The translations under genes and the position numbers were made by a program. DNA of 64,000 nt from contig NZ_VSLZ01000002.1 of assembly GCF_010747475.1 (NCBI RefSeq), positions 496,001 through 560,000 on the forward strand, in the 5' to 3' direction. The notes below the pieces were generated by a model. The model made no database searches and had not been told where the DNA came from. It saw only the letters and a list, made by a program, of their open reading frames with translations. The number at the start of each line of letters is the position of its first letter. Within the stretch, counting starts at the first letter, position 1. Source of the stretch: Halorussus sp. MSC15.2 (GTDB taxonomy: Archaea; Halobacteriota; Halobacteria; Halobacteriales; Haladaptataceae). Shown here in pieces: positions 50,983-53,264 of this stretch.

Positions 50983-51405
50983 TCAGAGCTTCGACCGAAG
51001 TTGTAGCGTGACCGTCGAGTCGTCGAGCAGTTCGCCGTCGCGGCGGACGTGGACGACCGGCGCGTCGTCCATCTGGAGCCACTCGTCGTCGTTTTCGCCC
51101 GAGATTGTAATCGTCCGCGACGAACGGCCGAGGCACTCGGAGGCGTCGTCGATAGCGAGCGGGTCGGGGGTCGTCTCGGTGGCGACGATGGGGATGGATT
51201 CGAGGTGCGGGTCCACGTCGCGCAGTACGTCCCGGTACTCGCAGACGAGTTCGACGGCTTCCTCGGCGACGTTGGCCGACGGGAACGAGGCTCCCCGAAC
51301 CGGGACGGGGCGCTTCCCCGAGAGGGGACAGACGACGGCGAAGTCGCCTTCGGGGTCGGTTAGGTCGTCGATTCGCCGGTGGAGGACTTCGAGGCGGTCG
51401 GGCAT
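50983..51405 (-). CDS. Small protein of the iron-box operon, paralogue of the first gene
   Basis: A 140-residue protein: PDRLEVLHRRIDDLTDPEGD, then FAVVCPLSGKRPVPVRGASF, ending WLQMDDAPVVHVRRDGELL and then LRSKL. It is clearly paralogous to the gene at 52295-52741, which shares the C-terminal W-L-x-M-D-x-A-P-x-V-H-V-R motif and the FPS region. I recall related proteins catalogued as DUF7552, unverified. Third gene of the cluster after the DUF7260-like gene, 104 bases downstream. Probably iron-regulated with the others; role unknown. Confidence 0.65.
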   Translation of the reverse strand: MPDRLEVLHRRIDDLTDPEGDFAVVCPLSGKRPVPVRGASFPSANVAEEAVELVCEYRDVLRDVDPHLESIPIVATETTPDPLAIDDASECLGRSSRTITISGENDDEWLQMDDAPVVHVRRDGELLDDSTVTLQLRSKL

Positions 51406-51509
51406 TGCGGTTCAGGTGCGACACGGCAGACCAACCGGGAATAGGTTTCGGAATCGCCATCGGCCGCGACGGTGACAGAATAGTCCGGAGACATCTCCGT
51501 TCGCGTAAC

Positions 51510-52298
51510 TCAGACTCGCGCACAGAGGTGGCGGCGAACCGCGCGCTGGCAGTCGGCGAGCAGGTCGTCCACTCGCGCGAGGTCGGCCAGCATCGGATGC
51601 GCCTCCTCGAAGTCGCCGTAGAGGTGGTCGAGCAGTTCCCGTTCCCTGATTCCGGTGAGACCGTCGCGCCGTGTCCCCCGGATGGTGGCCTGCCGCTCGC
51701 GGACGAGACGGTCGCAGGTCTCCCGACGGTCGGCCAGTCGGTCGTGGCGCTCGCGGAGTTCCTCGAACCCGAGTTGCAACAGCGGCGTCTCGTCGGCCTC
51801 GGCGACCCAGTCGGTGACTGCGTCGAGTTCGTCGCCGACCTCCCGAGCGCGGTCGCGCTCGGTCGCGATGGCGTCGGCGAGCAGTTGGCACTCCTCTGCG
51901 CGCGTCTCGGCCCGCGAGACCAACTGGTCCGCGAGACCGGGTGCGAACGCGCCCGCCGCGGGCGAGAGCGCGGCGGCGAGGTCGGGCGACAATTCGTCGG
52001 CCATCGCCTCCGGGAGCGAGTCGGCGTCGGCGTACGGGAGTACGGTGTCGCGGAACGCCTCGCGGACGACCGATACCCCGTCGGCGTTCCCCACCGAAGA
52101 CGTTCCGACGGCGAGCGCGTTTCCGGCCGACCGACTCGGGACCGACTGCGCGGACGTTCCGACCCGCTGGCCCGCATCCGGCGACGCCTCGCGGACGCGC
52201 TCGGCGAACCGTTCGAAGCCCGCGACCTTCTGGTCGATGCGTTCGCGTTCCGATTCGGCGCGCTCGACGGCGTCGTGCGTCCGGAGTTCGACGGTCAT
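51510..52298 (-). CDS. DUF7260-like coiled-coil protein of the iron-box operon
   Basis: A 262-residue, largely helical protein with long acidic coiled-coil stretches (RAESERERIDQKVAGFERF at the start and RDRAREVGDELDAVTDWVAE later). I recognise it as the haloarchaeal family I recall as DUF7260. The segment VREAFRDTVLPYADADSLPE is characteristic. Its ATG overlaps the stop of the upstream small gene (ATGA), so they are translationally coupled. No metal-binding cluster or transport motif is obvious. Role unknown. Confidence 0.7.
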   Translation of the reverse strand: MTVELRTHDAVERAESERERIDQKVAGFERFAERVREASPDAGQRVGTSAQSVPSRSAGNALAVGTSSVGNADGVSVVREAFRDTVLPYADADSLPEAMADELSPDLAAALSPAAGAFAPGLADQLVSRAETRAEECQLLADAIATERDRAREVGDELDAVTDWVAEADETPLLQLGFEELRERHDRLADRRETCDRLVRERQATIRGTRRDGLTGIRERELLDHLYGDFEEAHPMLADLARVDDLLADCQRAVRRHLCARV

Positions 52299-52741
52299 AG
52301 CTTCGAGTCCAGTTGGCGCTCGACGGCGTCGTCCGGGAGCGGTTCGCCGTCCTGCCGGACGTGGACCAGCGGCGCGTTGTCCATCCGGAGCCACTCGCGC
52401 TCGCCGTCGCCCGAGAGGACGACCGAGCGCGACGTGCGCGGCAGACCGTTCTCGCGTCGGCCCGCCGCGCGTTTGCGGGTCGAGACGAGGGTCAACGGTT
52501 CGCCGCCGTTCTCGTAGACGGAGAGGCGGTGTTCTGGGAGTTCGGTGTCGGACTCTCGGAGTGCTCCGCGATACCGACGGGCGAGGTCCGCAGCCTCGCG
52601 CGCGGCCGCTTCGGAGGGGAACCGTCTGCCGGTCAGCGGCGCGGGACACTCGTCGGTTTCGGCGCAGGCGACGTAGAAATCACCGTCGTCGGTGGCTAAC
52701 TCGCCGATGGTCTGCCGGATACTGTCGAGGGAATCGGCCAT
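52295..52741 (-). CDS. Small protein of the iron-box operon, first gene
   Basis: A 148-residue protein: DSLDSIRQTIGELATDDGDF, then FYVACAETDECPAPLTGRRF with two Cys, a basic middle, and the C-terminal EWLRMDNAPLVHVRQDGEPL. It is a paralogue of the gene at 50983. The ATG at 52741 lies directly behind the iron-box-like sites 52744-52779. It overlaps the DUF7260-like gene by four bases. I cannot assign a function. Confidence 0.68.
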   Translation of the reverse strand: MADSLDSIRQTIGELATDDGDFYVACAETDECPAPLTGRRFPSEAAAREAADLARRYRGALRESDTELPEHRLSVYENGGEPLTLVSTRKRAAGRRENGLPRTSRSVVLSGDGEREWLRMDNAPLVHVRQDGEPLPDDAVERQLDSKL

Positions 52742-52743
52742 GG

Positions 52744-52779
52744 TTTAGGCTGGCCTAATCTATGTTAGGTCGGCCTAAA
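52744..52779. promoter_or_regulatory. Two iron-box-like operators before the three-gene operon
   Basis: TTTAGGCTGGCCTAA (52744-52758) and TTAGGTCGGCCTAAA (52765-52779) share the core TTAGG-Y-NN-GCCTAA and are 20 bp apart, two turns of DNA. Together with the palindrome at 296-311 they define a consistent 14-bp motif close to the DtxR/IdeR/SirR consensus. They sit next to the start codon and would block transcription when metal-bound repressor is present. The regulator gene is not in the window. Confidence 0.72.
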
Positions 52780-52868
52780 AGAGGTTTCGAACGGTGGAGC
52801 GTGTAACCAGTTTGCATAGAGATACCGAGCGAACGAGACGGCCGACGAACTGGGACGAACGCGAAGCG

Positions 52869-53264
52869 TCACAACGCCGTGTACTCTCCGACGAGTTCCA
52901 CCAAGTCGTCTTTCTCCAAACTCTCCTCGATGCGCTCCTCGCGCTCGCCGTCGGCGTAGAGGTCGAACGTCGGTGTCCCCTCGATGCCCCGCTCCAGCGC
53001 CAACTTCTGGTGGTGTACGACGTTCACCTTCGCCACCGCCGCGAAGGTCTCGCGTGCGACTGACTCCACGACGGGGTGGAGACGTTGGCCCGCGCCGCCG
53101 TCCGCGTAATAGTGGACCAGCACGACGTCGTGGGCGGCAACGGTCCGGTCGAAGTTCTGCGAACCGTCTACGTAGACTGGCGCTGACGGGGCACCGAGAC
53201 CCTGTTCCTGCACGAGCGCTCGCTTCTTGCGCTCCCGAACCGCTTCGAGGTCCTCGTCGTCCAT
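52869..53264 (-). CDS. Thioredoxin-fold protein lacking the CxxC motif
   Basis: A 131-residue protein. The thioredoxin fold is suggested by VVLVHYYADGGAGQRLHPV, FAAVAKVNVVHHQKLA, the cis-proline in IEGTPTFDLYADGE, and the final helix EKDDLVELVGEY. The usual W-C-G-P-C is replaced by ADGGAGQ, with no Cys anywhere, so ordinary disulfide redox is impossible. The fold may bind a partner or chaperone. The start is at 53264. Confidence 0.75.
   Translation of the reverse strand: MDDEDLEAVRERKKRALVQEQGLGAPSAPVYVDGSQNFDRTVAAHDVVLVHYYADGGAGQRLHPVVESVARETFAAVAKVNVVHHQKLALERGIEGTPTFDLYADGEREERIEESLEKDDLVELVGEYTAL

Follow-up and report, generated by a model that had tools for sequence, protein, structure and literature searches.

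What do the products of a small gene cluster do when a pair of iron-box-like palindromes stands directly before it? In Halorussus sp. MSC15.2 the question is raised by three genes in a stretch of 64,000 nucleotides (the window, to whose first letter the coordinates refer):

52295-52741, minus strand: gene A, 148 amino acids, with N-terminal DUF7552 (Pfam PF24422, E=1.7e-26, 92.6 bits)
51510-52298, minus strand: gene B, 262 amino acids, DUF7260, mostly helical/coiled coil (Pfam PF23921, E=1.2e-57, 195.6 bits)
50983-51405, minus strand: gene A', 140 amino acids, a DUF7552 paralogue of A (Pfam PF24422, E=1.9e-22, 79.7 bits)

All three matches are above the curated Pfam cut-off, which is 27 bits for DUF7552 (PF24422) and for DUF7260 (PF23921) alike. 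The initial annotation had taken the third gene for a paralogue of the first and the middle one for a coiled-coil protein of the DUF7260 type, and both identifications hold: A and A' share DUF7552 and are 39% identical (E=5e-32), and the Pfam match of B is accompanied by long helices in its predicted structure. B is the sole DUF7260 copy in the genome. The C-terminal segment of A is without a Pfam match and is conserved when A is aligned with 37 relatives. The closest named relative of A is Halorussus aquaticus (96% identity). In a tree of the family A and A' belong to distinct clades, that of A' being well supported, so that the duplication predates most of the Halorussus species compared.

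Immediately ahead of A there are two exact copies of TTAGGNNNNCCTAA, at 52745-52758 and 52765-52778. They are 20 bp apart, have the core TTAGG-NNNN-CCTAA and are centred 10 and 30 bp before the ATG of A:

52745-52758, read on the plus strand: downstream operator TTAGGCTGGCCTAA, an exact palindromic motif that ends 3 nt before the ATG (52741) of A
52765-52778, read on the plus strand: upstream operator TTAGGTCGGCCTAA, an exact palindromic motif that overlaps the TATA-like TTTTAG (52775-52780)
52775-52789, minus strand: promoter-like block for A-B, with BRE CGAAAC (52784-52789) and the TATA-like TTTTAG (52775-52780), a conserved column block in Halorussus orthologs

The placing of two copies 20 bp apart beside the start codon was thus correctly described at the outset. 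The motif itself had been written TTAGG-Y-NN-GCCTAA, of which the half-sites stand and the fixed Y and G of the spacer do not, since these are not invariant among orthologs. Loci of the A type were compared from 24 further genomes in the family, of which 15 are Halorussus and 9 Haladaptatus. The tandem pair, on whose presence before orthologous operons the initial annotation had staked its proposal, is exact in all 24, with a spacing of 20 or 21 bp; at the orthologous Haladaptatus locus A stands alone. The Halorussus alignment of the promoter reads CCGAAAnntcTTTTAGGnnnnCCTAAnnnnGATTAGGnnAGCCTAAAnCATG, with both half-sites of both palindromes fixed, the four central bases variable and the flanks degenerate beyond one T/A base.

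Exact half-sites around a varying centre in 24/24 loci, and the enrichment of the motif genome-wide, speak against the pair being a chance palindrome before an operon unrelated to metals, a reading for which no supporting point was found and which is exceedingly improbable. In the window, sites with at most one mismatch number 3 where 0.15 are expected, and none of 100 shuffles gave 3. Genome-wide the motif occurs 18 times and a reversed-pattern control 4 times, and other Halorussus genomes searched have 6-22 against 0-4 reversed. Chance occurrence of the motif is ruled out by the shuffles, the reversed-pattern control and the conservation among orthologs. All 18 genomic copies are intergenic and close to a called gene start (genes were called on fetched stretches by a simple caller based on codon usage, and some start codons may be off). 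The block at 52775-52789 appears to be the promoter of A-B, and the arrangement, with the upstream copy over the TATA-like element and the downstream copy nearly at the ATG, is as would be expected for repression by promoter occlusion.

How many of the three genes would these operators govern? A and B overlap by 4 nt in the window, as they do in each of the 14 Halorussus loci where both are present. A' starts 104 nt behind B in the window and is found in 12 of the other 15 Halorussus loci as well, the distance from the preceding gene being 72-114 nt throughout. In 13/13 sequences compared, the gap ahead of A' contains a conserved CCGAAAC-type BRE/TATA-like block, and in none of the 13 does it contain an iron box. 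In the window this block is:

51439-51451, minus strand: promoter-like block CCGAAACCTATTC ahead of A', without an iron box, conserved in 13 B-A' or A-A' gaps

Since each such gap carries a promoter-like block without an iron box, A' probably has its own promoter, for which 51439-51451 is the candidate, and is probably not directly under the iron boxes. The tight three-gene operon first proposed is in this way reduced to A-B, which is probably the iron-controlled unit, though A' may be transcribed also by read-through from A-B. [Upstream of A there is a thioredoxin-fold gene (52869-53264, minus strand), whose position beside A is kept in Halorussus and absent in Haladaptatus. It is without any cysteine, so its product cannot be a classical thioredoxin.]

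Regulators of the DtxR family in haloarchaea include, besides FerR, Idr1 and Idr2 of Halobacterium and Idr, SirR and TroR of Haloferax. The box of the bacterial members, DtxR and IdeR, has the consensus TTAGGTTAGCCTAACCTAA. Its first 14 bases fit TTAGGNNNNCCTAA exactly, whereas its third half-site (CCTAA) is missing at the A-B operators. The FerR iron regulon of haloarchaea was reportedly described by Leyn and Rodionov (2015). DtxR-family iron regulation in haloarchaea is already established, and DUF7552 and DUF7260 genes can probably be placed in such a regulon. In the haloarchaeal regulons, as here, DtxR-type palindromes stand as operators ahead of genes for siderophore biosynthesis and Fec/Fhu ABC transport. 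The A-B locus differs from them in encoding uncharacterised proteins and in having its operators in tandem, 20-21 bp apart, from the TATA region to the start codon. Two genes for DtxR-family regulators with the C-terminal domain PF02742 are encoded in the MSC15.2 genome, on contig C3.

The genes that share the motif bear on which metal is concerned. In this genome it precedes an IucA/IucC-type siderophore biosynthesis cluster with an aminotransferase and a decarboxylase, three solute-binding protein genes (two Peripla_BP_2, that is FecB, and one SBP_bac_6, whose box is at G000:C2:495064), a FecCD permease gene, and the gene of an ABC-type ATPase that, by the start of its sequence and its neighbours, reads as sufC. 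The metal differs among members of the DtxR family, and a manganese-dependent SirR has been described for Halobacterium (PMC3600143), so the sites could serve a regulator responding to manganese or another metal, with A-B acting in manganese homeostasis. However, the motif here marks siderophore biosynthesis, FecB/FecCD and SufC-like genes, and a ferR signal has been reported on all Haloferax fhu operons (PMC11349517). From the genes sharing the motif manganese control is judged unlikely, and a part for A-B in manganese homeostasis very unlikely indeed. Of the iron- or manganese-responsive role originally suggested, the iron half is therefore retained, because the box is shared with siderophore biosynthesis genes and FecB/FecCD neighbours, and DUF7552 and DUF7260 occur in siderophore ABC operons; manganese is disfavoured, and A' probably lies outside the reach of the operators. 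The comparative data strongly support regulation of A-B by DtxR-type boxes, and that A-B belongs to the iron regulon, taken alone, is highly probable.

Several other boxes deserve mention in their own right. A third exact iron box in the window, at 297-310, lies between an ORF on the minus strand and two genes for small membrane proteins on the plus strand. In the same genome iron boxes precede genes that are not obvious iron genes, namely those of a Gluconate_2-dh3 subunit (box at L017 7014), a glutamine-synthetase-like protein (box at L018 7090) and a glucose/sorbosone dehydrogenase (box at L024 7293), as well as a DUF5059 gene (box at L022 7041). Large DUF5059-like proteins are encoded directly before box-bearing DUF7552 genes in two other genomes (L142 and L161), the one at L161 being DUF5059 with a plastocyanin-like domain. 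The third DUF7552 gene of the MSC15.2 genome has no exact box. It encodes DUF7552-DUF7551 (G000:C2) and its box (L083 4804-4818) reads TTTTAGCTAGCCTAAA, apparently one base short of TTAGGCTAGCCTAA, the box of the matching gene in genome G012.

Beyond the family, 144 of 243 genomes sampled across the order, and 44 of 77 genera, have DUF7552; of 14 control genomes Haloferax volcanii is the only one with it. (A search of plasmids with a Haloferacaceae DUF7552 homologue matched no Haloferax plasmid record.) DUF7260 is more widespread, in 189 of the 243, and often apart from DUF7552, so it may have wider roles. Gene calling on 60 DUF7552 loci, picked non-randomly so as to cover many genera, gave 47 DUF7552 genes; an exact box stands no more than 400 bp upstream of 25 of them, the reversed motif upstream of none (0/47). 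At least one exact box is present in 53 of the 60 loci, and FecB or FecCD genes in 23. Where DUF7552 and DUF7260 are neighbours there are usually two boxes, which outside the Halorussus/Haladaptatus family are 34-36 bp apart.

The company that the genes keep in these loci is that of siderophore transport. Pfam matches place FecCD, ABC ATPase and Peripla_BP_2 genes next to DUF7552 in several loci, and many further DUF7552 genes are held in FecB-FecCD-ATPase-flavoprotein operons, some of which end in DUF7552 followed by DUF7260. In Halobellus limi the run is FAD oxidoreductase, iron ABC permease, ATPase, two substrate-binding proteins, FAD-binding protein, DUF7552-DUF7551 and DUF7260, the DUF7552 gene being identified by a tblastn match and the DUF7260 gene by size and position only. 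In Halobacterium hubeiense a DUF7552-DUF7260 pair (locus L141) is beside a siderophore-type ABC/flavoprotein cluster. In the window A-B stands at a distance from transporters, and in Halorussus it adjoins no transporter genes. This separation, and the presence in the regulon of a SufC-like gene, dehydrogenases and a DUF5059 protein, would suit membership in a general response of iron sparing or stress that has nothing to do with uptake. That reading is improbable given how repeatedly DUF7552, with or without DUF7260, is beside FecB/FecCD in distant genera.

What A and B might do at the protein level is approached less directly. In the predicted structure of A (pLDDT 81, pTM 0.55) the N-terminal domain is small and of alpha/beta type, and the C-terminal part is less certain; the AlphaFold2 model of B (pLDDT 81, pTM 0.73) is almost wholly helical, with long helices. 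Searches of both models against PDB structures gave no match below E=0.001, and no credible hit came from profile searches of PDB sequences. In NCBIfam neither A nor A' has a family, and the matches of B are weak and below cut-off. No recognised catalytic or metal-binding signature was found in A or B. In the literature searched DUF7552 and DUF7260 are not named, and an earlier listing under other names is possible. Since on reading of their sequences A and B lack an N-terminal lipoprotein or Tat signal of the sort that the neighbouring binding proteins have, both are assumed to be soluble and cytosolic.

The main competing explanation is that A and B are iron-regulated, but as regulators or adaptors that modulate the activity of a transcription factor or transporter in iron starvation, rather than as handlers of iron or siderophore. 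In the alignment with 37 relatives A lacks a conserved His/Cys set of metal ligands, its only near-invariant cysteine, C26, being replaced by Ala in part of the Haladaptatus copies; B is long and helical; and DUF7552 is in other copies fused to a further domain, DUF7551. These features would fit an adaptor, whereas neither Pfam nor NCBIfam recognises a DNA-binding domain in A or B, and transporters and flavoproteins recur in DUF7552 clusters, which leaves the regulator or adaptor reading rather unlikely. For a role as uptake helpers, taken alone, gene neighbourhood is the evidence, and it suggests that role at slightly less than an even chance.

The account preferred, that of an iron-repressed A-B operon encoding siderophore-uptake helpers, is as a whole reasonably probable. 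The distance of A-B from transporters in Halorussus, the wider spread of DUF7260, the third DUF7552 copy without an exact box and the lack of a fold match giving a mechanism all count against it. In it we infer the identity of the repressor, the direction of regulation, and the cytosolic location and biochemical role of A and B. A-B would belong, as an operon of two genes, to the DtxR-family iron regulon of haloarchaea. In iron-replete cells a DtxR-family repressor of the FerR/Idr type, loaded with metal, would occupy both tandem 14-bp palindromes, one lying over the TATA region and the other reaching from the start site to the ATG, so that transcription is blocked. Iron starvation would lift the block and the DUF7552 and DUF7260 proteins would be made, most likely to help in taking up ferric siderophores or in dealing with the iron once imported, together with FecB-FecCD-ATPase transporters and the flavoproteins linked to them. 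A', as an older duplicate of A and probably with its own promoter, would be outside direct control by the iron boxes.

A and B would resemble siderophore-interacting reductases and FhuF in being cytosolic partners encoded and induced with Fec/Fhu ABC transporters. They differ in that neither Pfam nor NCBIfam assigns DUF7552 or DUF7260 to any of these families, and no PDB fold matches them. More tentatively, DUF7552 (alone, duplicated or fused to DUF7551) and DUF7260 may constitute a cytosolic module specific to haloarchaea, one that acts with siderophore ABC importers and their linked flavoproteins in freeing imported iron or directing it onward, and for which no counterpart in bacteria has yet been recognised.

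Many proteins of the Haloferax iron-starvation response are uncharacterised (PMC11349517), and little has been described of what becomes of a ferric siderophore in archaea once it is imported. By their ties with the iron regulon and with siderophore ABC operons, DUF7552, DUF7551 and DUF7260 become testable candidates for that post-import step, and the conserved double operator could serve as a simple model of promoter occlusion by an archaeal DtxR-family repressor.
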